Source of the DNA: Eubacteriales bacterium
GTDB lineage: Bacteria > Bacillota > Clostridia > Oscillospirales > Oscillospiraceae
Length of the DNA: 56,468 nt
Reading direction: 5' to 3'
Assembly: GCA_030536515.1 (NCBI GenBank)
Contig: JAUNPV010000016.1
Coordinates: 1-56,468, forward strand
The stretch's first letter is position 1, and every line of letters begins with the position of its first letter. Positions 23,155-48,123 of the stretch are shown here, piece by piece. Under the pieces are notes generated by a model. The model did not search any database, was not told the DNA's origin, and worked only from the letters and a program-made list of their open reading frames with translations. The position numbers were made by a program, and so were the translations under genes.

Positions 23155-24972
23155 TTACTTACCGACGCACTCGTCAAGGCCCAGCTTTTTCAGGGTCTCG
23201 TCGGTGGGGAAGGCGTTGACCCAGCCCCGGGCCTCGTAGTACTGCGGCAGGGTCAGGGGCAGCTGGGAAATCATGCCCTCGGAGGGGCCGTTTGCCACCT
23301 TCTCCTGGAGCAGACGCTTGGGCAGCCGGTCGTCCTCGGGCTTCATGCCGGCGGCCTTGTTGAACATCCGCTCGATGTTGTAAATCCGGTCGCCGATTTC
23401 CAGAACCTCCGCTGCGGTGTAGTTGGTGCCGGTGGCGGCGTTCAGCAGGTCGGTGTACTCCTGAGCGCCCATGGCGAAGGAGGTGAACAGGCAGTGGCCC
23501 ATGGAGTCGATGACGGCGGTCAGGTCCTGGAAGGTCTTGGTCCAGGCGGCCTTGTCAGTGGTGACGGTCCGGTCCAGCTGCTGGGGCAGGCCCAGGACCT
23601 CGGGGGAAATCATGTAGCCCCGGACGTGGCAGCCGCCTCGGTTGGAGGTGGCGTAGGTGATGCCGATGCCCTGGATGGCCCGGGCATCATAGGCGGGCAT
23701 TTCCTGCTTCTTGACGGACATGGAAATTTCGGGGTGGCCGTAGTGCTCGCACAGCCGGGCGGAGCCGGAGCTCATCAGCCAGGCCAGGGGGGACTCGGGG
23801 TCGCCCATCCGCTTGGTCCACTCCACCAACGCCTTGGTGCTGCCCCACTCCAGAGGCACGCCGTCGCATTCCTCTTCCTTGATGTAGCCCTTCTGGTACA
23901 GCTCCATGGCGGCTGCAATGGTGCAGGGGGTGCCGATGGCATCCAGGCCGTACTCATTGCAGAGCATATTGCACTCGTCGATGATGTTCAAATCGTTGTT
24001 GCCGCAGTTGCCGCCGTAGGCCCACAGAGGCTCGTACTCGGGACCGCCAACCACCTTGCCGTTGACGTTGACCACACGGCCGCAGGCAATGGGGCAGCGG
24101 TGGCAGGCACCGGGCTTGACCAGGTACTTTTCGGCCAGGGTCTCGCCGGAGATGTCGTCGGCCTTGTCGTAGTAGGATTCCTGCCAGTTGCGGACGGGGA
24201 AGGCACCGATGCTGTTGACGATGTTCACCAGCACCGCGGTGCCCAGCTGGCGCAGGCCTGCGCCGGTGACGGGGTTGGCCTTCAGAACCTCCAGAGCCCG
24301 CTTGTTGGCGGCCTTCAGGGCCTCCACATCGGCCACGTTGTCCAGATTCTTCCGGCTGGCCTTGACCACAATGGCCTTGAGCTTCTTGCTGCCCATGACC
24401 GCGCCTACGCCGGAGCGTCCGGCGGCCCGGTCCTTGTCGTTCATAATGGCGGCCAGCAGCACCTGCTTCTCACCGGCGGGGCCGATGTTCAGAACGGAGG
24501 CGTCGGCCCCGTGCTTTTCCCGGAGGGTCTCGTCCATCTTCTCGCTCATCACGCCCACGTACTCCTCGGCGCTGAGCAGCTCGATTTTGTCGTCCACGAT
24601 GTTGATGTAGGTCCACTGAGGGGCCTCGCCCTCGACGATGATGGCATCCCAGCCGGCGTATTTCAGCTTGGCACCCCAGATGCCGCCGGAGTTGGAGCAG
24701 GCAATCATGCCCGTCAGGGGGGACTTGGTGCACACCATGTACCGGCCGGAGGAGGGGGCCTGGGCGCCGGTCATGGGGCCGGTGATGTAAACCAGCTTGT
24801 TTTCAGGGGACAGAGGGTCCACGGTGGCGACACCCTCGTCATAGAGAATCTTGGTGCCGAGGCCACGGCCGCCGATGAACTTGTGGGCCATGTCCAGGTC
24901 CAGCTTTTCGATTTTGATTTCGCCGGTGGTCAGATTGACCCGGGCCAGCTTTTCATAGTATGCTCCGCTCAT
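23155..24972 (-). CDS. aor: Aldehyde:ferredoxin oxidoreductase, tungsten-pterin type
   Basis: A 605-residue member of the AOR family, whose characterised members hold a tungsten bis-pterin and one [4Fe-4S] cluster and oxidise aldehydes to acids with ferredoxin as acceptor. The N-terminal barrel has the FIGGRGLGTKIL segment. Cluster ligands fit Cys290, Cys293, Cys297 (C-x2-C-x3-C) and Cys493 (DSMGHC). The pterin loop GLDAIG, the Glu at PEYEPLW (about 311-317) and His449 (GGCHVRGY) match the active site of archaeal AOR. Start choice: ATG 24972 has GGAGGT 7 bases upstream. No four-cluster WorS-type partner is adjacent, so it may work alone with ferredoxin. Exact substrate unknown. Confidence 0.93.
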   Translation of the reverse strand: MSGAYYEKLARVNLTTGEIKIEKLDLDMAHKFIGGRGLGTKILYDEGVATVDPLSPENKLVYITGPMTGAQAPSSGRYMVCTKSPLTGMIACSNSGGIWGAKLKYAGWDAIIVEGEAPQWTYINIVDDKIELLSAEEYVGVMSEKMDETLREKHGADASVLNIGPAGEKQVLLAAIMNDKDRAAGRSGVGAVMGSKKLKAIVVKASRKNLDNVADVEALKAANKRALEVLKANPVTGAGLRQLGTAVLVNIVNSIGAFPVRNWQESYYDKADDISGETLAEKYLVKPGACHRCPIACGRVVNVNGKVVGGPEYEPLWAYGGNCGNNDLNIIDECNMLCNEYGLDAIGTPCTIAAAMELYQKGYIKEEECDGVPLEWGSTKALVEWTKRMGDPESPLAWLMSSGSARLCEHYGHPEISMSVKKQEMPAYDARAIQGIGITYATSNRGGCHVRGYMISPEVLGLPQQLDRTVTTDKAAWTKTFQDLTAVIDSMGHCLFTSFAMGAQEYTDLLNAATGTNYTAAEVLEIGDRIYNIERMFNKAAGMKPEDDRLPKRLLQEKVANGPSEGMISQLPLTLPQYYEARGWVNAFPTDETLKKLGLDECVGK

Positions 24973-25036
24973 GTATGTACCTCCAGATTTGTGAATAATA
25001 GATGAATCAACAAAGGAATGCAATGCTTACACTGTT

Positions 25037-25064: not shown

Positions 25065-25147
25065 GGCCCTGGGGGGAAGATTGTGCGAACTGAGCTGAAT
25101 TTGTACCAAAACGGCCACAGCCGGTGCATCTGTCCGGTATAGATGTG

Positions 25148-25191
25148 CGAAATGGGACGAAATCATACGATATAAGACGAAAATCACGAAA
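25148..25191. promoter_or_regulatory. Helically phased CGAAA repeats, candidate operator between AOR and the regulator gene
   Basis: CGAAA occurs at 25148, 25158, 25178 and 25187, with the variant CGATA at 25168. The steps are 10, 10, 10 and 9 bases, so the copies lie on one face of the helix. The array ends 7 bases before the -35 box of the regulator promoter. Binding by the HTH-PBP regulator is inferred. Confidence 0.5.
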
Positions 25192-25198
25192 CGGGCCC

Positions 25199-25227
25199 TT
25201 GCGTATTGCCCAAAAGAGTCGTATAAT
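25199..25227 (+). promoter_or_regulatory. Promoter of the cofactor biosynthesis operon
   Basis: TTGCGT (25199-25204) and TATAAT (25222-25227) with a 17-base spacer, about 40 bases before the regulator start. Confidence 0.7.
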
Positions 25228-25270
25228 AAGAAATAGAATCTGTGCGTATCGACAGGAAAGGAGCGCTTCC

Positions 25271-26212
25271 ATGACCCAGAACAAGTCGCTGTCCACCCAG
25301 GAGGTGGCCCAGATCCTCCACGTCAGCAAATCCACCATCTACGAGCTCATCCGCCGGGGGGAGCTGAGCTCCTATAAAATCGGCCGGAAGGTCCGCTTTA
25401 CCCAGGACGATGTGGATGCCTACATCGCCCGGTCCCGCCACGAGGCCAGCACCCGCCCTGTCCAGCGCATCGACACCCACAGCACCCTGCTAACGCCCCC
25501 GGACCGGGGGCGGCCGGAGATTATCCTGGCGGGCCAGGACGTGGTGCTGGACATTCTGGCGGGCTTTTTGGAGCTCAGCGACCTCACCGCCGGGCGCAGC
25601 TATCTGTCCGGCTTCGAGGGGCTGCTGGCGCTGTACCAGGACAGGGTCCACGCCGCCGCCTGCCATTTGTACAGCCCCGCCGCCGGGGTGTACAACCACA
25701 GCTTTGTCCAGCATCTGCTGCCGGGGGTCCCGGCGGCGCTGGTGAACCTGTCCTACCGGATGCTGGGCTTTTACGTGCCCAGGGGGAACCCCAAAAACAT
25801 CCGGGGCTGGGAGGATTTGTGGCGGCGGGATGTGACCATCGTCAACCGCCGCCTGGGCTCCAGCACCCGGATTCTGCTGGACGGCCAGCTGGCCCGGATG
25901 GGCATTGACAGCCGGGATGTCCGGGGCTACGACAAAATTATGAAGTCCCACCTGACGGTGGCGGCGGCCATTGCAGGCGGCGAGGCGGACCTGGCCCTGG
26001 GCACCCAGCGGGTGGCGGGGGCCATGGAGGGCATCGACTTTGTGCCCTTGCAGGAGGAGCGCTACGATTTGGTGATGAAAAAGGTGTTCCTGGAAAGCCA
26101 GCCGGGGCAGCGCCTGCTGGCTATTTTGAACGACCCGGCCTTCCGCCGGGAAATCCAGCCCTTTTCCGGCAACGACTACCGGGACCTGGGCAAAATCCTG
26201 ATGGAGGTATGA
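25271..26212 (+). CDS. Transcriptional regulator: excisionase-type HTH fused to a PBP-like metal/cofactor-sensing domain
   Basis: A 313-residue protein. Residues about 8-55 form a MerR/excisionase-like HTH (STQEVAQILHVSKSTIYELI, then GELSSYKIGRKVRF). The rest is a PBP-like domain (about 80-305) of the type found in molybdate-related proteins, with HLYSPAAGVYNHSF and RRLGSSTRILLD. The same domain is fused to the MoeA copy at 27443-29350, so both probably bind one ligand, such as tungstate, molybdate or a pterin intermediate. ATG 25271 follows AAAGGAG. It is divergent from AOR and first in the cofactor operon, so it likely controls both. It is not a ModE or TunR type, since no TOBE domain is present. 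Confidence 0.85.
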   Translation: MTQNKSLSTQEVAQILHVSKSTIYELIRRGELSSYKIGRKVRFTQDDVDAYIARSRHEASTRPVQRIDTHSTLLTPPDRGRPEIILAGQDVVLDILAGFLELSDLTAGRSYLSGFEGLLALYQDRVHAAACHLYSPAAGVYNHSFVQHLLPGVPAALVNLSYRMLGFYVPRGNPKNIRGWEDLWRRDVTIVNRRLGSSTRILLDGQLARMGIDSRDVRGYDKIMKSHLTVAAAIAGGEADLALGTQRVAGAMEGIDFVPLQEERYDLVMKKVFLESQPGQRLLAILNDPAFRREIQPFSGNDYRDLGKILMEV

Positions 26213-26216
26213 AACC

Positions 26217-27440
26217 ATGCTGGAAGTGAAAACACCGGAGCAGGTCCTGGACCTGATTCGGACCGAATTTGCGCCTATCCAGGCCCCCGCCCGGGAGGCG
26301 GATTTGACCGAGGCCCTGGGCCGGGTGCTGGCGGAGGATGTGGCGGCCAGAGAGTATGTGCCGGATTTTGACCGGTCCACCGTAGATGGCTACGCCGTCC
26401 GGGCCCGGGATACCTTCGGCTGCTCCGATGCCATTCCCGCCATTTTGCCCCTGGCCGGGGAGATTCTCATGGGCCAGGGGGCCCCGTCGCCGCTGGAGCC
26501 GGAGACCTGCTGGGCGGTGCCCACCGGCGGCGCCATGCCGGCGGGGGCCGATGCCGCCGTGATGGTGGAGTACACCGAGGACTACGGCGACGGCACCGTG
26601 GGCATCAGCAAAAGCGCCGCCCCGGGCCAGAACATGATTTTCAGAGGGGACGATGTGTACCCCGGTAAGGTGATTCTGGAAAAGGGCCATGTGCTGTCCA
26701 GCCAGGACATCGGGGCCCTGGCGGCCATCGGCCTGGCAAGGGTCCGGGTGGTCCCCCGGCTGCGGGTGGGGATTTTGTCCACCGGCGATGAGCTGGTGCC
26801 GCCGGAGGCAGTCCCCGGCCCCGGCCAGGTCCGGGATGTCAACGGCCCCATGCTGTGTGCCATGCTCCGGGGCTTTGGGGCGGAGCCTGTTTCCTACGGC
26901 ATTGTGAAGGATAACGAGGCCCAGCTGGCCGCCACGGTGGACAGGGCCATGGCCGAATGCGATGCGGTGCTCCTGTCCGGCGGCAGCAGCGTGGGGGTCA
27001 AGGATGCCGCCTGCCGGATTATTGAGCAGCGTGGGCAGCTGCTGCTCCACGGCATCGCCATGAAGCCCGGCAAGCCTACCATTTTGGGCAGGGCGGGGAA
27101 CAAGCCTCTGGTGGGCCTGCCCGGCCATCCCGTGGCGGCCTATTTTATTACAAAGCTGTTCGTCCTGCCCCTGCTGTCCCGGCTGGAGGGCCGGGTCCAG
27201 GCCCACTACACCGTCGCCGCACGGATTACCGAAAGCGTCAGCGCCAACCACGGCCGGGCCCAGTACGGCTGCGTGCGGCTGCTTCAGAAGGAGGGCCAGC
27301 TCTGGGCCCAGCCCATCCGGGGCAAATCCGGCCTCATCACCACCCTGGCCGGGGCCGAGGGCTATTTCGAAATTTCCCGGGACTGCGAGGGCATCCCCCG
27401 GGGTGCAGAGATACAAGTGACCATTACGACAGGAGAATGA
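26217..27440 (+). CDS. moeA: Molybdopterin molybdotransferase MoeA
   Basis: A 407-residue enzyme that inserts molybdate or tungstate into adenylated molybdopterin. It shows RSTVDGYAVRA (about 54-64), PTGGAMPAGADAAVMVEYTE, GILSTGDEL (domain III start), LLSGGSSVGVKDA and AMKPGKPT, with GLPGHPVAA near the substrate site. Order and length are normal. The start lies 4 bases after the regulator stop with GGAGGT upstream. A second MoeA with an added sensor-like domain follows directly. Two paralogues side by side, as in organisms that handle W and Mo separately, suggest division of labour; this is inference. Confidence 0.93.
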   Translation: MLEVKTPEQVLDLIRTEFAPIQAPAREADLTEALGRVLAEDVAAREYVPDFDRSTVDGYAVRARDTFGCSDAIPAILPLAGEILMGQGAPSPLEPETCWAVPTGGAMPAGADAAVMVEYTEDYGDGTVGISKSAAPGQNMIFRGDDVYPGKVILEKGHVLSSQDIGALAAIGLARVRVVPRLRVGILSTGDELVPPEAVPGPGQVRDVNGPMLCAMLRGFGAEPVSYGIVKDNEAQLAATVDRAMAECDAVLLSGGSSVGVKDAACRIIEQRGQLLLHGIAMKPGKPTILGRAGNKPLVGLPGHPVAAYFITKLFVLPLLSRLEGRVQAHYTVAARITESVSANHGRAQYGCVRLLQKEGQLWAQPIRGKSGLITTLAGAEGYFEISRDCEGIPRGAEIQVTITTGE

Positions 27441-27442
27441 AC

Positions 27443-29350
27443 ATGGAATTTACATATTTAACCAACGCCCCCCTGGACCGGGCGAAAACCGAATATTTGC
27501 AGCTGCTGATTCAGGCGGGCTTTGCCCCCGATACCGAAACCGTCCCCGTGATGAACGCCTGCGGCCGGGTGACGGCCCAGGCTGTCTACGCCCACATCTG
27601 CGCCCCCCACTACGCCGCCAGCGCCATGGACGGCATTGCCGTCCGGGCCAGCGCCACCTTCGGCGCCACCGAGACTACCCCCATCCGCCTGTCCCCCGAC
27701 CAGTTTGAGGTGGTGGACACCGGCGACCCCGTTGACGAGCCCTGGGACGCCGTGATTATGGTGGAGGAGCTGGTGAAGCAGGAGAACGGCTCCGTGGTTA
27801 TTCACGCCGCCGCCGCCCCCTGGCAGCACATCCGCCAGATTGGCGAGGATGTCTGCGCCGGGGAGATGATTCTGGCCTCCCACATGACGGTGACCCCCGC
27901 CGCTATCGGGGCCATGATTGCAGGAGGCGTGCTGGAAATTGAGGTAATCCGCAAGCCCCGCATCGGCATCATCCCCACCGGCGACGAAATCATTCCCCCC
28001 TGCACGGACCCCAGGCCCGGGGATATTCTGGAGTTCAATTCCTCCATTTTCTCCGCCATGGTGGCCCAGTGGGGGGCGGAGCCTGTGACCTATCCCATCG
28101 TCCCCGACGTTTTCGACCAAATCCGGGACATGGTGGCCAAAGCCGCCGGAGAGTGCGACATGGTGATTCTCAACGCCGGTTCTTCGGCAGGCCGGGAGGA
28201 TTTTTCCGCCGGGGTTATCCGCCAGCTGGGCACGGTGCTGTACCACGGCATCGCCATGAAGCCCGGTAAGCCCGCCATTCTGGGGGCCATTGGGGGAAAG
28301 CCGGTGCTGGGGGTTCCCGGGTACCCGGTGTCCGGCATCATCGTCATTGAGGAGCTGCTGCGGCCACTGGTGGACCACTGGCTGAAGGCTCCCACCGAGA
28401 AAAAGCAGTATGCCCCCGCCGTGCTGACACGCCCGGTGGTGTCGGGGCTGAAATACCAGGAGTTCGTCCGGGTCCGCCTGGGCTTCGTGGGGGACAGACT
28501 GATGGCCTCCCCCTTAAGCCGGGGCAGCGGCGTGGTGTCCTCCTTTATGAAGGCCGACGGCATTCTGGAAATCCCCCAGGGCACCGAGGGGTATGAGGCC
28601 GGGCAGACCGTGTCCGTCCGGCTGCTGGCTCCCATGGAGAAGCTGAAAAACACCCTCATGGTCATCGGCAGCCACGACCCGCTGCTGGACGAGCTGGCGG
28701 ACATGATGCACCGGCAGGACAGCAGCGTGTACATGAGCTCCGCCCACGTCGGCTCCATGGGGGGCATTATGGCCATGCGCCGGGGCGAAAACCACGTGGC
28801 AGGCTGCCACCTGCTGGACACCGCCACCGGCGAATATAACCGCAGCTTCCTTAAAAAATACTTCCCCAAGGGAAATGTCCGGCTCATCTCCTGCGTGGGC
28901 CGCCAGCAGGGGCTGATGGTGGCCCCGGGCAACCCCCTGGGCTTTACCAAATTCGCTGACATTGCCACGCCCGGGGTCCGCTATGTCAACCGCCAGAAGG
29001 GCTCCGGCACCCGGATTCTCACGGACTACCTGTGCAAAACCGAACACGTGGACCCCGACAGCATCTACGGCTACGAGCGGGAGGAGATGACCCACACCTC
29101 CGTGGCGGCCCAGATTGCCGCCGGGTCCGCCGATGCGGGCATGGGCATCTACTCCGCCGCCAGGCTCTACGGCCTGGACTTCATCCCCATCTGCATCGAG
29201 GAATACGACCTGCTGATTCCCGACCACGCCTGGGACACCCCCATGGTCCGGCAGCTGCTGGCCACCCTGAAAAGCGACGCCTTCCGGGACAAGCTCCTGG
29301 CCCTGGGGGGCTACACCGTGGAAAACCCCGGTGAAATCATCGCGCTATGA
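27443..29350 (+). CDS. moeA: MoeA fused to a C-terminal PBP-like domain
   Basis: A 635-residue fusion. Residues about 1-400 are MoeA (ASAMDGIAVRA, GIIPTGDEIIPP, LNAGSSAGREDFS, AMKPGKPAILG, GVPGYPVSG). Residues about 405-630 form the same PBP-like domain as in the upstream regulator (CHLLDTATGEYNRSF; NRQKGSGTRILTDYL; HTSVAAQIAAGSADAGMGI). Start choice: ATG 27443 lies 7 bases after AGGAG; ATG 27437 overlaps the moeA stop but is too close to that site. The added domain may deliver oxyanion or sense loading. This architecture is known in Clostridia MoeA proteins, but the ligand is unproven. Confidence 0.9.
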   Translation: MEFTYLTNAPLDRAKTEYLQLLIQAGFAPDTETVPVMNACGRVTAQAVYAHICAPHYAASAMDGIAVRASATFGATETTPIRLSPDQFEVVDTGDPVDEPWDAVIMVEELVKQENGSVVIHAAAAPWQHIRQIGEDVCAGEMILASHMTVTPAAIGAMIAGGVLEIEVIRKPRIGIIPTGDEIIPPCTDPRPGDILEFNSSIFSAMVAQWGAEPVTYPIVPDVFDQIRDMVAKAAGECDMVILNAGSSAGREDFSAGVIRQLGTVLYHGIAMKPGKPAILGAIGGKPVLGVPGYPVSGIIVIEELLRPLVDHWLKAPTEKKQYAPAVLTRPVVSGLKYQEFVRVRLGFVGDRLMASPLSRGSGVVSSFMKADGILEIPQGTEGYEAGQTVSVRLLAPMEKLKNTLMVIGSHDPLLDELADMMHRQDSSVYMSSAHVGSMGGIMAMRRGENHVAGCHLLDTATGEYNRSFLKKYFPKGNVRLISCVGRQQGLMVAPGNPLGFTKFADIATPGVRYVNRQKGSGTRILTDYLCKTEHVDPDSIYGYEREEMTHTSVAAQIAAGSADAGMGIYSAARLYGLDFIPICIEEYDLLIPDHAWDTPMVRQLLATLKSDAFRDKLLALGGYTVENPGEIIAL

Positions 29351-30729
29351 TGCAGCTTGACGCTGTGGTCATCGGCGGCGGCATCCTGGGCTGCTTTGCG
29401 GCCCGGAGCCTTATGCGGTGGAACATCAAAGCTGCCCTGGTGGAGGCAGCCGACGATGTGTGCACCGGCATCACCCGGGCCAACTCCGCCATTGTCTACC
29501 CGGGCTACGACATGAAGCCCGGCAGCCTGAAGGCGGCGCTGACCTGCAGGGGCAGCCTGGACTTCCCCCGGCTGTGCCGGGAGCTGGAGGTGCCCCTGAA
29601 CCAATGCGGCTCCGTCATGGTGGGCCGGGGGGAGGGCTCCCGGGAGGCTCTGGAGAAAAAATATGACCGGGGCCGGGAAAACGGCGTTCCCGGCCTGGAA
29701 ATGCTGACCCGGGAACAGGTGCTGAAGCGGGAGCCTATGGTGACCGGGGACATCACCGGCGGTCTCTACGCCCCCACCGCCGCCACCGTCAACCCCATGG
29801 TCCTGGGCATTGCCGCCTTTGAAAATGCGGCGGCCAACGGCTGCATCCCCCTGCTGCGCACCGCCGTGGAGGCCATGGAGCAGGTCCCCGGAGGCTACAT
29901 TTTGAAAACCCAGAGGGAGGAGATTTTCGCCCGGGCGGTGCTCAACTGCGCCGGACTGAATGCGGATAAGGTCCAGGAGCTGCTGTTTCCCCCCTCGGTC
30001 CGTCTTTTTATCGACGGGGCCGACTATCTGGTGCTGGACGCTGACGTCCCCGGCCCCAGCCACATTATCTTCACCGAAACCCCGGACGGCAAGGGCATCA
30101 CCGCCATTCCCGCCCCGGAGGGGAACCTGATGATTGCCTCCGCCGCCCGGCCTCTGGACGGGCCGGGGGCCAGCCCGGAGGGACTGCGTGCCCTGAAACG
30201 GGCCATGACAGACCTGCTTCCCGGGACCCCGGACCGGGTCATCCGGAATTTCAGCGCCCTGCGGCCCAACCCCTGCCAGGTGGCCCTGGTGGACGGGCAG
30301 TGGGTCCCCACCAAAAAATCCATCCACAGCTTCGTCATCGAGTTCCCCGCCCCGGGCTTTTGCAGCCTCATCGGCATCAAGACCCCCGGCATCACCTGCG
30401 CAGGGGAGCTGGGGGAGCATCTGGCGGGGAAAATGGCCGCCTATCTGAATGCGGCGGAAAATCCGGCCTTCCGGCCCCGCCGCCGGGCCATTGTCCGGGC
30501 CCACGACCTGCCCTTTGAACAGCGCCGGGCCCTGGCGGCGGAAAACGGGGACTATGGCGAGGTGGTGTGCCTGTGCCGGGATATCACCTGCGCCGAGGTG
30601 AAGCAGGCCATCGCCCGGGGCGCAAAAACCGTGGATGCCGTCAAGCGGCGGCTGGGCACCGCCATGGGCCCCTGCCAGGGAAGCCGCTGCACCCGGCGGA
30701 TTCAGGAGATACTGGGGGTGGACCCGTGA
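29347..30729 (+). CDS. FAD-dependent oxidoreductase with C-terminal BFD-like [2Fe-2S] domain (GlpA/DAO type)
   Basis: A 460-residue flavoprotein. The N-terminal FAD motif is AVVIGGGILGCFAARSL; the DAO fold follows (ITGGLYAPTAATVNP; SALRPNPCQVALVDG). The last 60 residues have a BFD-like cluster site with four Cys: VCLCRDITC and GPCQGSRC. The layout equals GlpA-type anaerobic glycerol-3-phosphate dehydrogenase subunits, but the context does not: it overlaps the MoeA-PBP stop by 4 bases and the next flavoprotein start by 4 bases, inside a pterin operon. Substrate unknown. A role with the AOR, as electron carrier or in cofactor chemistry, is inference only. Confidence 0.83.
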   Translation: MMQLDAVVIGGGILGCFAARSLMRWNIKAALVEAADDVCTGITRANSAIVYPGYDMKPGSLKAALTCRGSLDFPRLCRELEVPLNQCGSVMVGRGEGSREALEKKYDRGRENGVPGLEMLTREQVLKREPMVTGDITGGLYAPTAATVNPMVLGIAAFENAAANGCIPLLRTAVEAMEQVPGGYILKTQREEIFARAVLNCAGLNADKVQELLFPPSVRLFIDGADYLVLDADVPGPSHIIFTETPDGKGITAIPAPEGNLMIASAARPLDGPGASPEGLRALKRAMTDLLPGTPDRVIRNFSALRPNPCQVALVDGQWVPTKKSIHSFVIEFPAPGFCSLIGIKTPGITCAGELGEHLAGKMAAYLNAAENPAFRPRRRAIVRAHDLPFEQRRALAAENGDYGEVVCLCRDITCAEVKQAIARGAKTVDAVKRRLGTAMGPCQGSRCTRRIQEILGVDP

Positions 30730-31610
30730 AAAAAGCGGACATTCTCATCATCGGCGGCGGCATCGCCGGAATCCAGGCCGCCAAAACCGCCTGCGCTCTG
30801 GGCCGGTCGGTGCTGCTCATCGACCGGAATCCCCGGCTGGGCGGGGTGCTGCCCCAGTGCACCCACCGGGGCTTCGCCGGGGCGCTGACGGGGCCGGAGT
30901 ACCTGGCGGCCCAGCTGGCGGATTTCCCGGCTGAGGTCCAGCTGCGGCTGTCCACCGCCGCCCTTTCCGTGGGAAGTGACAAAACGGCAGTGCTGTCCAG
31001 CCGGGCGGACGGGGTCTGGCGTGCGGCCTTTTCCCGGCTGATTTTGGCCACAGGCTGCCGGGAGGTGGCCGCCGGGGCCCTGGGGCTGGGAGGCACCCGG
31101 CCGGAGGGGGTCTATACCGCCGGACAGGCCCAGGCCCTGCTCAATTTGGAGGGCATTGTCCCGCCGGGACCCATTGTGATTCTGGGCAGCGGGGACCTGG
31201 GCCTCATCATGGCCGCCCAGCTGCGGGAGGCCGGGGCGGAGGTTGCCGCCATTGTGGAAAAAAAGCCCCTTTGCGGCGGCCTTATCAAAAACCGCCGCCG
31301 CCTGGAGCCGCTGCACATCCCCCTGTACACCGGGGCCAGCCTCCGGCGGCTGGCGGGCAGCCCCCGGCTTGTCGCCGTGGAGGTCCTGACCGAGGATGGC
31401 CGTGCATTGACCATTCCATGCCGAAGCCTGCTGATTGCAGCGGGCTTGCAGCCGGAGCAAAGTCTGGTCCGGGACCTGGGAGAGCCGGATTGGCTCTATC
31501 TGTGCGGAAACTGCCGGCAGATTCACACCATGGTGGAGTCCGTGGCGGCCCAGGGGGCCCAGGCGGCGATGGCTGCCAGCAATGAAATAGGAGAAGAAGA
31601 CTATGACTGA
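30726..31610 (+). CDS. NAD(P)/FAD-dependent oxidoreductase, partner of the preceding flavoprotein
   Basis: A 294-residue protein starting at GTG 30726 in a GTGA overlap with the previous gene. It holds two dinucleotide sites: ILIIGGGIAGIQAAKTA (FAD, about 6-22) and PIVILGSGDLGLIMAAQL (NAD(P), about 147-164). Signature TGCREV and a final VAAQGAQAAMAA helix are as in pyridine nucleotide-disulphide reductase-like subunits that pair with DAO/BFD proteins in Firmicutes glp-type operons. The third gene of that usual trio, a small DUF1667 Cys protein, is not present. It may link NAD(P)H to the FAD/[2Fe-2S] partner. Function within the pterin operon is unknown. Confidence 0.83.
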   Translation: MKKADILIIGGGIAGIQAAKTACALGRSVLLIDRNPRLGGVLPQCTHRGFAGALTGPEYLAAQLADFPAEVQLRLSTAALSVGSDKTAVLSSRADGVWRAAFSRLILATGCREVAAGALGLGGTRPEGVYTAGQAQALLNLEGIVPPGPIVILGSGDLGLIMAAQLREAGAEVAAIVEKKPLCGGLIKNRRRLEPLHIPLYTGASLRRLAGSPRLVAVEVLTEDGRALTIPCRSLLIAAGLQPEQSLVRDLGEPDWLYLCGNCRQIHTMVESVAAQGAQAAMAASNEIGEEDYD

Positions 31611-32553
31611 TCAATACGGACGCAACATCCACTACCTGCGCATTTCCGTCACGGAGCTGTGCAACCTCCGCTGCCGCTACTGTATGCCCGTAGACGGGGT
31701 CTGCAAGAAAAGCCACGACGAAATGCTCACCGAGGACGAGATTATCGACGCCGTCCACGCCGCCGCCGTCCTGGGCGTTGACAAGGTCCGCATCACCGGC
31801 GGCGAGCCGCTGGTCAAGCGCAACATTGTCTCCATCTGCCGCCGGACGGCCCAGGTCCCGGGCATCCGGGAGGTGTGCCTGACCACCAACGGCATCCGGC
31901 TGCCCCAGCTGGCGGCCCCCCTGCGGGAGGCGGGGGTGCGGCGGGTGAACCTGAGCCTGGACACCCTGAACGAGGAAAAATACCGCTACATCACCCGCTG
32001 GGGAGAGCTGTCGGACTTTCAGGCGGGCCTGGATGCTGCCCTTGCCGCCGGGTTTGAGAAAATCAAAATCAACACCGTCCTCATCGGCGGCTTCAACGAC
32101 GATGAGATTGTGCCTCTGGCGGAGCTGACGAGGCAGTATCCCGTGGACGTGCGCTTCATCGAGCTGATGCCCATGGTGGGCGGCGAATTTTCCGAGCAGG
32201 CCTACCTGTCCGGGGAGGCGGTGCTGAAAGCTCTGCCGGAAGCCCAGCCTGTGGCGCCCGACGGCGGCGTGGCCCGGCTGTACCGGCTGCCCGGGGCCCT
32301 GGGCAGCATCGGCCTCATCAGCCCCATTTCCGCCCACTTCTGCGCAGGGTGCAACCGCCTGCGCCTCACCGCCGACGGCCGGCTGAAGCCCTGCCTTCAC
32401 GGGGCGGCGGAGTATCCCATCAAGGGCCTGACCCGGGCGGAAATGGAGCGGGTCATGGCTGATGTTATCTGGAACAAGCCCAGCTGGCACGGGGACCTGG
32501 ATGCCCTGCACCGGAGCCAGGCGGGCCGGAATATGAATCAAATCGGAGGTTAA
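31603..32553 (+). CDS. moaA: GTP 3',8-cyclase MoaA
   Basis: A 316-residue radical S-adenosylmethionine enzyme that converts GTP to 3',8-cyclo-GTP, the first step of molybdopterin synthesis. The N-terminal cluster site is ELCNLRCRYCMP (C-x3-C-x2-C), followed by RITGGEPLVKRN. The C-terminal cluster site is CAGCNRLRLTADGRLKPC (C-x2-C-x13-C). It ends in an extended tail without the usual terminal Gly-Gly at the very end, though a GG pair is present (NQIGG). The start overlaps the flavoprotein stop by 8 bases, confirming one operon. Length is normal. Confidence 0.95.
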   Translation: MTDQYGRNIHYLRISVTELCNLRCRYCMPVDGVCKKSHDEMLTEDEIIDAVHAAAVLGVDKVRITGGEPLVKRNIVSICRRTAQVPGIREVCLTTNGIRLPQLAAPLREAGVRRVNLSLDTLNEEKYRYITRWGELSDFQAGLDAALAAGFEKIKINTVLIGGFNDDEIVPLAELTRQYPVDVRFIELMPMVGGEFSEQAYLSGEAVLKALPEAQPVAPDGGVARLYRLPGALGSIGLISPISAHFCAGCNRLRLTADGRLKPCLHGAAEYPIKGLTRAEMERVMADVIWNKPSWHGDLDALHRSQAGRNMNQIGG

Positions 32554-32554
32554 G

Positions 32555-33034
32555 ATGGAAGATTTTACCCATTTTGATGACCAGGGCCGGGCAAAAATGG
32601 TGGACGTGGGGGAAAAGAATGTCACCCGCCGCGAAGCCACAGCCGCAGGCCGGGTGCTGGTCAATGAGGAAACCTTTGCCCTCATCCGCACCGGCGGCAT
32701 GAAAAAGGGGGACGTGCTCACCGTGGCCCAGATTGCGGGCATCATGGGCGCCAAGCGGACCCCGGACCTGATTCCCATGTGCCACCCCATTTTGATGGAC
32801 GGGGTGAAGCTGGCCCTGCACCTGGATGAACACCGCCGCTCGGTGGAAATTCAGGCCACGGTGACCTGCGGCGGCCGGACGGGGGTGGAGATGGAGGCCC
32901 TCACCGCCGTGTCCGTGGCGGCTCTGACGGTGTACGATATGTGCAAGGCCGTCCAGAAGGACATGGTCATCACGGACATCCGCCTGGTATCCAAAACCGG
33001 CGGTGTCCACGGAGATTATCAGCGAGCAGAATGA
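32555..33034 (+). CDS. moaC: Cyclic pyranopterin monophosphate synthase MoaC
   Basis: A 159-residue enzyme working after MoaA to give cyclic pyranopterin monophosphate. Conserved features seen are HFDDQGRAKMVDVGEK near the N-terminus, MCHPILMDGV (about 74-83), GVEMEALTAVSVAALTVYDM and the end segment with Lys/Asp residues (KDMVITDIRLVSKTGG). The start is one base after the moaA stop. Complete and typical. Confidence 0.96.
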   Translation: MEDFTHFDDQGRAKMVDVGEKNVTRREATAAGRVLVNEETFALIRTGGMKKGDVLTVAQIAGIMGAKRTPDLIPMCHPILMDGVKLALHLDEHRRSVEIQATVTCGGRTGVEMEALTAVSVAALTVYDMCKAVQKDMVITDIRLVSKTGGVHGDYQRAE

Positions 33035-33055
33035 CATGAAAATGGAGGAAAAAGT

Positions 33056-33547
33056 ATGTACAACGCAGCAGTGATCACCGTCAGCGACAAGGGCTCCCGG
33101 GGGGAGCGGGTGGATACCAGCGGACCGGCTCTGTGCCGGATTCTGGAGGAAAAGGGCTTTGCGGTGGCCTACACCGCCATAGTCCCCGACGAGCGGGAGG
33201 CCATTCAGGCGGCGCTGCTCACCTGCACCGACGAAAAGCACATCGCCCTGGTGCTGACCACCGGCGGCACCGGCTTCTCCCCCCGGGACATCACCCCGGA
33301 GGCCACCATGGAGCTGGTGGAGCGGCCCACCCCGGGCATCCCCGAGGCCATGCGGGCCGAGAGTATGCGCATCACCCCCAAGGGCTGCCTGTCCCGCTCC
33401 GCCGCCGGCATCCGGGGCCGCAGCCTGATTATCAACCTGCCCGGCAGCGAAAAGGCCTCGAAGGAGAACATCCTGGCCGTCATCGACCCGGTCAGGCACG
33501 GCCTGGATATGCTCTACTCCGAAGGCTCCGCCGACTGCGCAAAATAA
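33056..33547 (+). CDS. mogA: Molybdopterin adenylyltransferase MogA/MoaB family
   Basis: A 163-residue protein that would activate molybdopterin with ATP so MoeA can insert metal. It shows AVITVSDKGSRGERVDTSGP, LVLTTGGTGFSPRDITPEAT and INLPGSEKASKEN, the standard motifs. RBS GGAGGAAA precedes the start. It is the last gene of the operon starting at 25271. The end is followed by stacked palindromic repeats that may stop transcription. Confidence 0.94.
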   Translation: MYNAAVITVSDKGSRGERVDTSGPALCRILEEKGFAVAYTAIVPDEREAIQAALLTCTDEKHIALVLTTGGTGFSPRDITPEATMELVERPTPGIPEAMRAESMRITPKGCLSRSAAGIRGRSLIINLPGSEKASKENILAVIDPVRHGLDMLYSEGSADCAK

Positions 33548-33555
33548 TCACCAAT

Positions 33556-33808
33556 ACCTTCCCCCGGGGGGAAGGTGGCCGAGCGTCAGCGAGGTCGGAT
33601 GAGGGATGGCGTGCACCTGGATTTAGTGAACAGTGAAGAGTGAAGAAGTAAGAAGTGTGGTATCGGCTTCGCCGATGATTTGAATAAGTGGCGAAGCCAC
33701 ACCTCACCTCTTCACTCTTCACTTTTACTTCTTCACTCATTTTCACCTGTCGCCATCCCTCATCCGTCTTGCCCTTCGGGCAATCCACCTTCCCCCGGGG
33801 GTGGAAGG
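33556..33808. repeat. Palindromic element family 3, copy a, interrupted by a family 2 element
   Basis: The outer arms are ACCTTCCCCCGGGGGGAAGG and GAGGGATGGC at the left, and GCCATCCCTC, GGGCAATCCACCTTCC at the right. Between them at 33625-33737 sits a complete family 2 element. Related intact copies lie at 54741-54907 and 56306-56468. Confidence 0.8.
33625..33737. repeat. Palindromic element family 2, copy 1 (nested)
   Basis: AGTGAA-rich left arm and TTCACT-rich right arm flank a core with ATCGGCTTCGCCGAT and GTGGCGAAGCCAC, each a small hairpin. Other copies are at 39158 and 48011. Confidence 0.85.
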
Positions 33809-36892: not shown

Positions 36893-37282
36893 TCAGGTTA
36901 GCTCTGTCTCCGTCACGCACTCGGTTTTCAGGCGGCCTACCAGGTATTGGAGGGCATCCACCACGTGGGGGCGGATGTCGCCGCCGATGAGGACGTACAT
37001 CAAATCGTCGCCCACCTGTAAGGTCCCCCGGTTCAGCCACACCCGGATGTAGAAAATGCCCGCCAGCTGATAGGTGTCGGCCACGGCGGCGTCCACCTTT
37101 GCCGGGTCAAAGTCAAAGACCATGCCGGTGACATCCCGGGCGGCGGTGTCCCCCAGGCGGACCCGGGCCTTGGCGCTGCGGCGGATGACCCCGTTGTGGG
37201 TCAGATACATCCCGATGTTGGGGGCGGATTCGTGGGCCTTGGCCTCTTTCAGCCAGGCATCCATGGATGGAACGGTGTTCAT
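36893..37282 (-). CDS. moaE: Divergent MoaE-like protein (molybdopterin synthase large subunit family)
   Basis: A 129-residue protein that resembles the MoaE-like proteins found with Clostridia AOR clusters: GMYLTHNGVIRRSAKARVR, GIFYIRVWLN and GDDLMYVLIGGDIRPHVVDA. In standard MoaE the C-terminus has catalytic Lys residues in a PIWKKE-type segment; here the end reads LKTECVTETELT, so those lysines are not in the usual place. Start choice: ATG 37282 has GGAGGG 7 bases upstream. It is the only MoaE candidate in the island, so it should pair with the MoaD at 22781-23002. Catalytic competence is uncertain. Confidence 0.75.
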   Translation of the reverse strand: MNTVPSMDAWLKEAKAHESAPNIGMYLTHNGVIRRSAKARVRLGDTAARDVTGMVFDFDPAKVDAAVADTYQLAGIFYIRVWLNRGTLQVGDDLMYVLIGGDIRPHVVDALQYLVGRLKTECVTETELT

Positions 37283-37286
37283 GCGC

Positions 37287-37526
37287 TTACCCTCCTGCAC
37301 TGATAAATGTTTGAAAAAACTGCCTGTAGATGTTTTCTGCGTTGGGACCGGAGATTTCCACCCGGGTCTGGGGCATGGGCCAGGGGCCCATGGGCCGGGG
37401 CGGCAGCGCCGTCAGAACAATCCGGCACCCCTCCCAGAGAAATCCGTCAGCATCTTCCAAAGCGTGCTGCCGGAAAAAGGCGGCGAGCCGGTCCGGGGGA
37501 ATGCTCCATACCTCACAATATTCCAT
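37287..37526 (-). CDS. Small conserved-looking partner of the MoaE-like protein
   Basis: A 79-residue protein that starts at ATG 37526 after GGGGG and ends 4 bases before the MoaE-like gene. It reads MEYCEVWSIPPDRLAAFFRQ, has a Trp/Cys-containing middle (FLWEGCRI) and ends in ISGPNAENIYRQFFQTFISAGG, whose last three residues are Ala-Gly-Gly. The Gly-Gly end is reminiscent of a sulfur carrier, but I cannot see a beta-grasp pattern. I do not recognise the family. Tight coupling to the MoaE-like gene suggests a role in pterin sulfuration. Confidence 0.65.
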   Translation of the reverse strand: MEYCEVWSIPPDRLAAFFRQHALEDADGFLWEGCRIVLTALPPRPMGPWPMPQTRVEISGPNAENIYRQFFQTFISAGG

Positions 37527-38070: not shown

Positions 38071-39114
38071 ATGAAAAAACTGTCTGCTCTGCTGCTGGCG
38101 CTGGTCATGGTCCTGGCTCTGACTGCCTGCGGCGCAAAGCCCGCCCCCACCGAGGCTCCCACCGCCGCCCCCACGGCTGCCCCCACCGAGGCCCCCACTG
38201 CCGCTCCCACGGAAGCGCCCACCGAGGCTGCCGCCGCCGTGAACACCGTCATCCTCAAGGAAGCCGACGATAAGATGATCAACACCTACACCGTCATCGC
38301 CGTGAACCCCGAGGCTCCCTTCACCGATGCCGACGGCAACGCCGTTTCCGACGTGGCCGTGAACACCGCCGGTGCCGACGCGCTGATTCAGTGGCTGCTG
38401 AGCCAGGAGGCTCTGGACCTGGCCGATGCCTATGGCGTGGCCGAGTACGGCGAGCACCTGTTCTACGTCAAGGACGACGCGCCCGTCTACGCTGGGGAAA
38501 TCGCCCCCGCCACCGAGGAAACCAAGGTCATCCGCCTGTCCACCACCACCTCCGTCAATGACTCCGGCCTGCTGGGCCAGCTGCTGCCTGTGTTCGAGAG
38601 CGCCTACGGCTACACCGTGGAGGTCCAGTCCGCCGGTACCGGCAAGGCCATTGCCGCCGCCAAGTACGGCAACGCCGATTTGATTCTGGTCCACTCCAAG
38701 AAGCAGGAGGAGCCCTTCGTGGCAGAGGGCTTTGCCCGGGTGGTTCCCGGCTTTGATACCGAGCGCATCAGCTTCCTGTATAACTACTTCGTCCTCTGCG
38801 GCCCCGCCGACGACCCCGCCGGTGCAGCTGACTGCGAAAGCGTGCTGGATTCCTTCGCCGCCATTGCCGACGGCAAGTACACCTTCATCTCCCGGGGCGA
38901 CGGCTCCGGCACCCACACCAAGGAGCTGAGCCTGTGGCCCGAGGCCCTGGGCATCACCGCCGAGGCCGAGTCCTTCGCAGGCTACACCGACTGGTACATT
39001 TCCGCCAACACCGGCATGGGCGCCTGCCTGGTCATGGCCGAGGAGATGGACGGCTACATCCTCACCGACAAGGCCACCTTCCTGACCTTCTCCGCCAACG
39101 GAGGCGTGATGTAA
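38071..39114 (+). CDS. tupA: Tungstate-binding lipoprotein, TupA family, apparently circularly permuted
   Basis: A 347-residue lipoprotein (LTAC, Cys20) with an Ala-Pro-Thr linker at about 22-57. Residues 59-135 look like the part that normally ends TupA: VILKEADDKMINTYTVIAVN, WLLSQEALDLADAYG, YGEHLF. Residues 154-340 then carry the part that normally begins it: RLSTTTSVNDSGLL, SAGTGKAIA, DLILVHS, SRGDGSGTHTKE, NTGMGACLVMAEE and GYILTDKATFL, after which the protein stops. The order is thus reversed relative to standard TupA, with a linker of about 20 residues joining the old ends. Ligand residues (TTS, SRGD, Arg/Gly-rich loops) are present, so tungstate binding is expected. It is first in tupABC. 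Confidence 0.88.
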   Translation: MKKLSALLLALVMVLALTACGAKPAPTEAPTAAPTAAPTEAPTAAPTEAPTEAAAAVNTVILKEADDKMINTYTVIAVNPEAPFTDADGNAVSDVAVNTAGADALIQWLLSQEALDLADAYGVAEYGEHLFYVKDDAPVYAGEIAPATEETKVIRLSTTTSVNDSGLLGQLLPVFESAYGYTVEVQSAGTGKAIAAAKYGNADLILVHSKKQEEPFVAEGFARVVPGFDTERISFLYNYFVLCGPADDPAGAADCESVLDSFAAIADGKYTFISRGDGSGTHTKELSLWPEALGITAEAESFAGYTDWYISANTGMGACLVMAEEMDGYILTDKATFLTFSANGGVM

Positions 39115-39123
39115 AATTTTAAC

Positions 39124-39147
39124 CCGTGGGCGGTTCGCCGCCCACGG
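39124..39147 (+). promoter_or_regulatory. Stable UUCG-loop hairpin between tupA and tupB
   Basis: CCGTGGGCGG-TTCG-CCGCCCACGG is a perfect 10-bp stem with a TTCG tetraloop, 9 bases after the tupA stop. It is flanked by AAAATTTTAA and AAATTTTAA, so it may act as a partial terminator or protect the tupA mRNA 3' end and raise the amount of binding protein. Confidence 0.7.
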
Positions 39148-39157
39148 AAATTTTAAG

Positions 39158-39264
39158 TAATAGGTAATAGTGAAGAGTGAATAGGTGAGGTATCGGCTTC
39201 GCCGATGATTTGAAAAGTGGCGAAGCCACACCTTACTTCTTCACTATTCACTATTACCTGTTAC
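39158..39264. repeat. Palindromic element family 2, copy 2, inside the tup operon
   Basis: Left arm TAATAGGTAATAGTGAAG and right arm CTTCACTATTCACTATTACC surround ATCGGCTTCGCCGAT and GTGGCGAAGCCAC hairpins. It separates tupA from tupB. Confidence 0.85.
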
Positions 39265-39287
39265 CTCAAACAAGCCGGAGGTTTTTT

Positions 39288-39974
39288 ATGGGCTCTTCCC
39301 TGGAGCAGGCTCTGAATTTAATACTGACGGCGGACCGGGAGCTGTGCAGCATCCTGTCGGTGACGGCCCGGATGAGCCTGGCCAGCTCCCTGCTGGCCCT
39401 GGCGCTGGGAGTGCCGGTGGGCATCTGGCTGGGAGCCGGGCGGTTCCGGGGCCGGGGGGCGCTGCTGGTGGCCAACCGGACGCTGATGGGAATGCCCCCG
39501 GTGGTCTGCGGCCTGATTTTCTATCTGCTGTTTTCCGGGGTGGGCCCCCTGCGGCACTGGAAGCTGCTGTTCACCGTCCGGGCCATGGTCCTGGCCCAGG
39601 TGGCCCTCATCACCCCCCTGGTGGTGGGCAGCATGGAGAGCTTCGTGGATGCCATTGCCCCCTCGGTCCGGGAGACTGCCCGGGGCCTGGGGCTGGGGCG
39701 GCTGCGGACGGCGGCCCTGCTGGGGGGCGAGTGCGTCTACCAGATTTTTTCCGCCTACCTGCTGGCCTTTTCCCGGGCCATTGCGGAGGTGGGGGCCGTG
39801 TCCATGGTGGGCGGGGCCATTGCCTGGAAGACAAACGTGATGACCACCGCCATCATGCAGTACACCAACCGGGGCAGCTTCTCCCTGGGCATTGCCCTGG
39901 GGATGATTCTGATGGGAGCCTCGCTGGTGGTGAACATTGCCATTTCCGTGCTGCAAAGGAGGTTTGGACGATGA
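39288..39974 (+). CDS. tupB: Tungstate ABC transporter permease TupB
   Basis: A 228-residue inner membrane protein with about five or six helices and the binding-protein-dependent permease loop (ETARGLGLGRLRTAALLG, where EA/EAA-like ET...G is seen). AIAEVGAVSMVGG is typical of TupB/ModB-type permeases. Start choice: ATG 39288 follows GGAGG. It overlaps tupC by 4 bases. It would form the channel of the tungstate importer with TupC and receive the oxyanion from TupA. Confidence 0.9.
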   Translation: MGSSLEQALNLILTADRELCSILSVTARMSLASSLLALALGVPVGIWLGAGRFRGRGALLVANRTLMGMPPVVCGLIFYLLFSGVGPLRHWKLLFTVRAMVLAQVALITPLVVGSMESFVDAIAPSVRETARGLGLGRLRTAALLGGECVYQIFSAYLLAFSRAIAEVGAVSMVGGAIAWKTNVMTTAIMQYTNRGSFSLGIALGMILMGASLVVNIAISVLQRRFGR

Positions 39975-40624
39975 ACATTCCACCCCTTTCCAAAACCTAC
40001 GGCCGCCGGCGGGTCCTGGACTTCCCCGGCTGTGAGCTGGAGCCGGGAACCGTCTACGCCGTCATCGGTGCCAACGGCAGCGGCAAATCCACCCTGGCCA
40101 GGCTGCTGGCCGGTGTCCTTCCGGCAGACGGCGGGGCAGCCCCGGCGGCGCTGCCTTCAGTGGGGTATATGCCCCAGCGGAGCTTCGCCTTCCGGATGAG
40201 CGTCCGGGCCAACGTCGCCCTGGGCGGGAAGGACCCGGACCGGGCGGCGGCACTGATGGAGGCTCTGGGGCTGACGGCCCTGGCATCCATGCGGGCGGAC
40301 AAACTCTCCGGCGGCGAGACCGCCCGGATGGCCCTGGCGAGGCTCCTGATGAAGCCCTTCGGCCTGCTGATTCTGGACGAGCCCACCGCCGCCATGGACA
40401 TGGAGTCCACCGCCCTGGCGGAGGCCCAGATTGCCCGCTACGCCGCCGAAACCGGTGCAGCGGTGCTGCTGGTGACCCACTCCCTCCAGCAGGCCCGCCG
40501 CCTGTCGGACCGGGTGCTGTTCCTGAAAAACGGGCAGCTGGTGGAGTCCGGCCCCACCGACCGGGTGCTTCACCACCCGGAAAAGGAGGAGACAAGGGCC
40601 TTTCTGGATTTCTACGGAAGCTGA
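39971..40624 (+). CDS. tupC: Tungstate ABC transporter ATP-binding protein TupC
   Basis: A 217-residue ABC ATPase. Walker A is GANGSGKST, the Q loop lies in YMPQRSF, the signature is LSGGETARMALARLL, Walker B LLILDEPTAAMD, and the switch His is in VTHSLQQARRLSDRV. It starts at ATG 39971 in an ATGA overlap with tupB. No C-terminal TOBE domain is present, unlike ModC. It powers tungstate import. Confidence 0.92.
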   Translation: MNIPPLSKTYGRRRVLDFPGCELEPGTVYAVIGANGSGKSTLARLLAGVLPADGGAAPAALPSVGYMPQRSFAFRMSVRANVALGGKDPDRAAALMEALGLTALASMRADKLSGGETARMALARLLMKPFGLLILDEPTAAMDMESTALAEAQIARYAAETGAAVLLVTHSLQQARRLSDRVLFLKNGQLVESGPTDRVLHHPEKEETRAFLDFYGS

Positions 40625-48010: not shown

Positions 48011-48123
48011 TAGTGAAGAGTGAATAGTGAAGAGTGAAGAGGTAAGGAATCGGCTTCGCCGATGATTAAAAAAGTGGCGAAGCCACACCTCACTTCTTCA
48101 CTCTTCACGATTACTTCTTCACT
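48011..48123. repeat. Palindromic element family 2, copy 3
   Basis: TAGTGAAGAGTGAATAGTGA at the left and TTCACTC-rich right arm surround ATCGGCTTCGCCGAT and GTGGCGAAGCCAC. It sits between cyuA and azlC. Confidence 0.85.

Follow-up and report, generated by a model that had tools for sequence, protein, structure and literature searches.

Is the protein encoded at 38071-39114 (plus strand) an ordinary TupA, or have its two ends been exchanged? The open reading frame lies in a window, i.e. the whole stretch of DNA that was analysed, of 56,468 nt from contig JAUNPV010000016.1 of assembly GCA_030536515.1 (Eubacteriales bacterium, Oscillospiraceae), and all coordinates are window positions. Its 347-residue product is a TupA-type tungstate-binding lipoprotein in which the C-terminal segment (residues 59-135) stands ahead of the N-terminal TTTS segment. 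A sequence-only reading of the window had described the protein as an apparent circular permutant of TupA; the reading frame, its coordinates and the motifs quoted were all found in the sequence, and the permutation itself is borne out by sequence comparison, by a standard-order relative (locus L118) and by the grouping of the permutants into one clade. It is very likely (roughly 90%) that the window protein represents a naturally occurring circular permutant of TupA. The gene is built as follows, with D. alaskensis G20 TupA (DaG20) as the standard-order reference:

38071..38130, plus strand: signal peptide and lipobox LTAC, residues 1-20 (sequence; lipidation at Cys20 judged by eye)
38131..38244, plus strand: A/P/T/E low-complexity tether, residues 21-58 (sequence; Pfam PT disordered repeat at 22.7 bits, below the cut-off of 26.2)
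38245..38286, plus strand: new N-terminal strand, residues 59-72, which in standard TupA forms the end of lobe B (DaG20 about 187-200; alignments and model, lobe limits from PMC5517513)
38287..38475, plus strand: former C-terminal segment, residues 73-135, corresponding to DaG20 lobe A from Tyr201 onward (alignments, rotation test)
38476..38526, plus strand: strap linking the old C- and N-termini, residues 136-152 (model; predicted local distance difference test, pLDDT, 93-97 in blocks of ten)
38527..39090, plus strand: former N-terminal core, residues 153-340 (alignments; PF12849, PBP_like_2, 99.1 bits at residues 147-340)
39091..39114, plus strand: new C-terminus, residues 341-347, and stop codon (sequence)

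A phmmer search against the PDB returned two stretches in swapped order. Residues 153-341 matched positions 6-179 of the TupA-like protein 3muq at 138.4 bits, and residues 60-103 matched positions 185-230 at 12.0 bits; the second stretch is weak taken alone, as it reaches only 2.3, 0.3 and 3.9 bits in the other TupA-type structures 3lr1, 5my5 and 3kn3, respectively. When the two parts were rejoined in TupA order, a single continuous match to 3muq 6-230 was obtained at 163.2 bits. The standard-order relative L118 (319 residues) likewise matches in two swapped pieces, residues 61-135 corresponding to L118 237-314 (40% identity, E 3e-16) and residues 134-343 to L118 28-226 (60% identity). Each half matches the opposite end of one TupA, in 3muq as well as in L118. 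In favour of a fusion of an unrelated N-terminal domain (residues 59-147) to a truncated TupA, residues 55-149 alone (window 38233-38517) match nothing in Pfam at E values up to 1. However, residues 59-135 proved not to be a different domain: they align with the C-terminal segment of L118 and of ten further standard TupAs, and the moved segment completes the TupA profile described below. The fusion was rejected on this specific match to the TupA C-terminus and is scarcely credible.

The order of the segments was further examined by rotating the mature protein against a profile of 49 standard-order TupAs (249 positions), from which eight close standard relatives had been excluded. Unrotated, the window protein scored 201.5 bits over profile positions 2-179, so that the unmoved protein does not align over the full length of TupA. 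The best of all 289 rotations gave 254.0 bits, reached at rotations 80-91, and homology then extended over the entire TupA length (positions 2-245). The standard-order proteins L118, L119, L179 and L133, three of which are absent from the profile, scored best in unrotated form. The gain upon rotation was positive in 115 of 115 permutant loci (32.8 to 64.6 bits, median 50.7), as compared to 0.5 to 5.7 bits in a shuffled-segment control (best of five shuffles), and at the level of sequence comparison chance is excluded as its source. In combination, the swapped matches and the rotation test uphold the claim that the closing segment precedes the opening one: the old ends are joined and new ends lie elsewhere in the same chain. 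The order of TupA, with TTTS first and the closing segment last, is reversed in the 115 loci kept by script and, by eye, in L117, which is absent from the rotation test and the trees because its pattern differs (IAASPE). Because of this reversal the window protein was filed as a permuted derivative and not as an ordinary TupA.

The distance from LF to TTTS is 26 residues in 115 of 115 loci, the tail after the DKATFLTF motif measures 5-11 residues in the 114 permutants with complete 3' ends, and a simple lipobox pattern is present in 85 of the 110 with complete 5' ends. Because two collections contributed some of the same genomes, the 115 loci reduce to 97 distinct mature sequences. The window belongs to a draft genome of 48 contigs, and a misjoin in one metagenome bin could in principle create a reversed order; yet the strap length is identical throughout, and the same order recurs in all 97 distinct sequences and in a one-contig genome (G078, 4.3 Mb). 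As the order is common to independent assemblies, among them 79 of the 80 related loci and, in the family sample, 34 of the 300 genomes, an assembly artefact was rejected and its probability is negligible.

The search of Oscillospiraceae genomes for the permuted order, proposed together with the original claim, returned 45 matching genomes among the 300 sampled from the family. In 34 of them, the host included, the match was full-length in permuted order at 66-100% identity; 31 of these were read as open reading frames, and three (G073, G149, G271) rest on the full-length match. The remaining matches comprised eight standard-order TupAs, read as open reading frames, and three weak ones with no recognisable TupA reading frame. 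None of the five same-genus genomes listed in this sample matched. Among the named loci (best 80 of 82), 79 were permuted and one, L118, had the standard order; judging by their titles, these are mostly metagenome bins of Oscillospiraceae, Clostridia and Lachnospiraceae, and many derive from animal gut. Further out, 7 of 295 genomes in the order sample matched, three of them permuted (own included), and 47 of 391 in the class sample, four of them permuted (own included; G1147, G996 and G1304 belong to other families), with the remaining class-sample matches starting only at query position 69 or later. The phylum sample contained 187 genomes with a TupA match out of 398; among the matches listed, all span the profile in standard order, and the moved segment was not matched in any of 13 re-searched phylum genomes with weaker matches. 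In 18 fetched loci no TupA reading frame was found by pattern, and for L165, L167-L173, L182 and L183 the order was read from the match range alone. This scattered distribution suggests that the gene was lost or was transferred among clostridia. Two loci of one metagenome-assembled genome (L039 and L044, on two contigs of bin SRR11489777_bin.47) carry two different permuted TupA genes.

A tree of 124 TupA sequences aligned in common order, 67 permutants (rows more than 90% identical dropped) and 57 standard proteins, placed all permutants on one side of one branch (Shimodaira-Hasegawa-like approximate likelihood-ratio test, SH-aLRT, 99). Their nearest neighbours, all of standard order, are L118 (93), then L119 with L179 (98), then L187 and kin (96), with L118 and L119 flagged as long branches; L118 has the segment at its C-terminus. 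The permutants are hence one clade nested within the standard TupAs. The corresponding TupB tree held 86 rows, as 24 of the 124 loci (L119 among them) were without usable or distinct TupB, permutant TupBs more than 85% identical were removed and the window's own was added. Here too the partners of the permutants form one group (95), followed by L118 (98, flagged as long) and L179 (99), in agreement with the TupA tree. The simplest reading is a single event in an operon whose transporter was retained: the exchange of ends seems to have taken place once, and the lipid anchor probably now sits on the other half of the protein.

As to how the ends were exchanged, several features point to duplication, fusion and trimming: the constancy of the strap, the resemblance of its end to the lipoprotein spacer of L118, a longer loop in L118 (KNNPEGDKLPNLH) at the permutants' cut site, with a similar insert in its closing segment, and tandem same-orientation pairs of standard tupA in other genomes and lineages (L150, L160, L162, L191). 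The likeliest origin is a tandem tupA duplication, after which the copies fused in frame and the outer pieces were lost. It counts against this origin that no intermediate with the closing segment at both ends was found in 112 permutant loci by a simple pattern, which may miss divergent copies. The missing intermediate would suit a different route, e.g. transposition or recombination of the gene's 3' end, as would the repetitive palindromic element behind the gene in the host genome. Conversely, the moved segment sits in frame between the signal peptide and the old N-terminus, as duplication plus trimming predicts, and tandem tupA pairs do exist; such a different route is considered unlikely, if still worth keeping in view.

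The AlphaFold model of the window protein is one confident fold (pLDDT 92.1, predicted template modelling score 0.85). By alignment, and with the lobe limits given in PMC5517513, the new ends lie between approximately residues 180 and 189 of DaG20, toward the end of lobe B. They had been predicted to lie near the hinge; they are close to it but not at it, being 11-20 residues before the crossover from lobe B to lobe A. With the new ends in lobe B, the chain order would change from A-B-A to B-A-B and the lipid tether would be shifted to the other lobe. The same source gives the DaG20 ligand positions as TTTS T9-S12, His59, Arg118, Thr124 and Asp170, which align with TTTS 158-161, His208, Arg275, Thr281 and Asp333; the pattern is kept in 115 of 115 permutants, in line with the earlier statement that the ligand motifs are intact.

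The surroundings of the gene bear on its function. The features concerned are:

39288..39974, plus strand: tupB, ATP-binding cassette (ABC) permease (NF038017 171.4 bits, cut-off 100; NF041773 137.7 bits, cut-off 320; start codon read from the sequence)
40004..40624, plus strand: tupC, ABC ATPase (PF00005 82.6 bits)
23155..25023, minus strand: aldehyde ferredoxin oxidoreductase-family gene (PF02730 255.7 bits, above cut-off; NF007354 210.5 bits, below the cut-off of 868)
26217..33547, plus strand: pterin-cofactor cluster with moeA, moeA with PBP_like domain, two flavoprotein-type genes, moaA, moaC and mogA/moaB (Pfam)
36893..37300, minus strand: MoaE-like gene (27.5 bits)

As in TupABC, tupA is accompanied in the window by permease and ATPase genes of the same strand. 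For tupC, none of the NCBIfam models listed (best 25 of 201) was above cut-off. TupB was present in 111 of 114 permutant loci and TupC in 107 of 114, some being cut by contig or locus ends, and in up to 25 of 114 loci the fetched flanks contained an aldehyde oxidoreductase-like gene. The query for the latter count was L118:665-2659 (minus strand), a gene beside L118 tupA that is aldehyde ferredoxin oxidoreductase-like by eye. The host genome (98% complete) has a single AFOR_N match, at 24358-24951 on the minus strand of the window, and no match to MoCoBD_1, Molybdopterin or ModA in searches that were positive in control genomes; the sulfite-oxidase type was not searched for. The transporter most likely feeds tungsten to the aldehyde oxidoreductase-family enzyme encoded nearby. 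A permutant that had left tungstate transport, as a sensor or a binder of another oxyanion, could account for some pocket-near motifs that are unlike those of standard TupA, and for the low score with the curated TupA model NF041772 (135.9 bits, best stretch residues 153-343, cut-off 400); that cut-off was reached by none of the 398 phylum genomes in the genome search. The conserved ligand motifs, the retained tupB and tupC, the recurrent aldehyde oxidoreductase-like gene and the lone AFOR_N gene, in a genome where the two other enzyme types searched for were not found, speak against such a change of function, which is improbable. The ModA model TIGR01256 had no match at E 0.001 across the whole host genome, permuted TupA included.

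A helix-turn-helix protein with a PBP_like domain (25124-26212) and a MoeA with a C-terminal PBP_like domain (27437-29350) are also encoded in the window and are possibly involved in oxyanion or cofactor sensing. Directly 3' of the tupA stop, before tupB, stands a strong G+C hairpin (39124-39147); tupA may be expressed above tupBC. The gap further contains a palindromic element of about 90-115 bases (39154-39268), also found at 33629-33739 and 48023-48114 and with 65 matches genome-wide, many of which count a single place once per strand. The tupA-tupB gap has a folding energy of -86.8 kcal/mol (z -11); no Rfam family reached its gathering score within the window, and the element looks like a miniature inverted-repeat transposable element (MITE) or a repetitive extragenic palindromic (REP)-like repeat.

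Taken as a permuted TupA, the protein would fold as an ordinary two-lobe TupA, bind tungstate between TTTS/His of lobe A and Arg/Thr/Asp of lobe B, and pass it on to TupBC, which would supply the nearby aldehyde oxidoreductase. The lipid tether would exit from lobe B and the chain would run B-A-B; the old ends are joined by the strap of constant length. A speculative and rather doubtful explanation for its persistence is that the permutation was retained because it transfers the tether from lobe A to lobe B and, with the old ends locked by an ordered strap, would alter presentation to or release from the TupB dimer at the membrane, TupB having co-adapted.

The permuted pair among glycine-betaine-binding proteins is reportedly OpuAC and ProX; OpuAC was a low Foldseek match of the model (rank 28, 3chg_D, E 2.3e-3). 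Among the titles listed from the open-licence PubMed Central (PMC) literature, none concerned a permuted TupA, with preprints and most subscription journals outside that scope. Permuted binding proteins are a known kind. Circular permutation has been described among glycine-betaine-binding proteins, molybdate-binding proteins and CysB (PMC2395249), and the betaine-binding case is likewise a natural permutation within the ModA-like class of two-lobe binding proteins. That case was found by structure comparison at less than 24% identity, whereas the permuted TupA shares 60% core identity with a standard-order relative, so that a tree can locate the event. In Treponema pallidum, TpMglB-2 (Tp0684; PMC4990184) is a natural circular permutant for which anchoring was raised by the authors as a possible cause; it resembles the present protein as a tethered, permuted binding protein, and itself still binds its ligand. 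It differs as a Type I sugar-binding protein with three strands moved and one extra crossover, the permuted TupA being an oxyanion-binding protein with, presumably, two crossovers. The ModA/WtpA molybdate/tungstate-binding proteins have about 9-14% identity to the permuted TupA and matched over model residues 90-287 only. Compared to standard TupA, solved for D. alaskensis G20 (5MY5) and G. sulfurreducens (3LR1), the permutant has a rotated segment order with new ends in lobe B, a strap, with a constant 26 residues between LF and TTTS, joining the old ends, a longer closing segment, and about seven extra residues before YNYFV. For annotation, this means that linear profiles score just part of the permuted TupAs. 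In the precedents, to the extent that the sources available describe them, proteins were compared at low identity or the moved part was poorly conserved. Permuted and standard TupA, in contrast, seem to be separated by a single event; their cores are 60% identical, ligand motifs and transporter are kept, and they so offer a natural experiment on whether chain order and tether position matter for binding, closure and docking.
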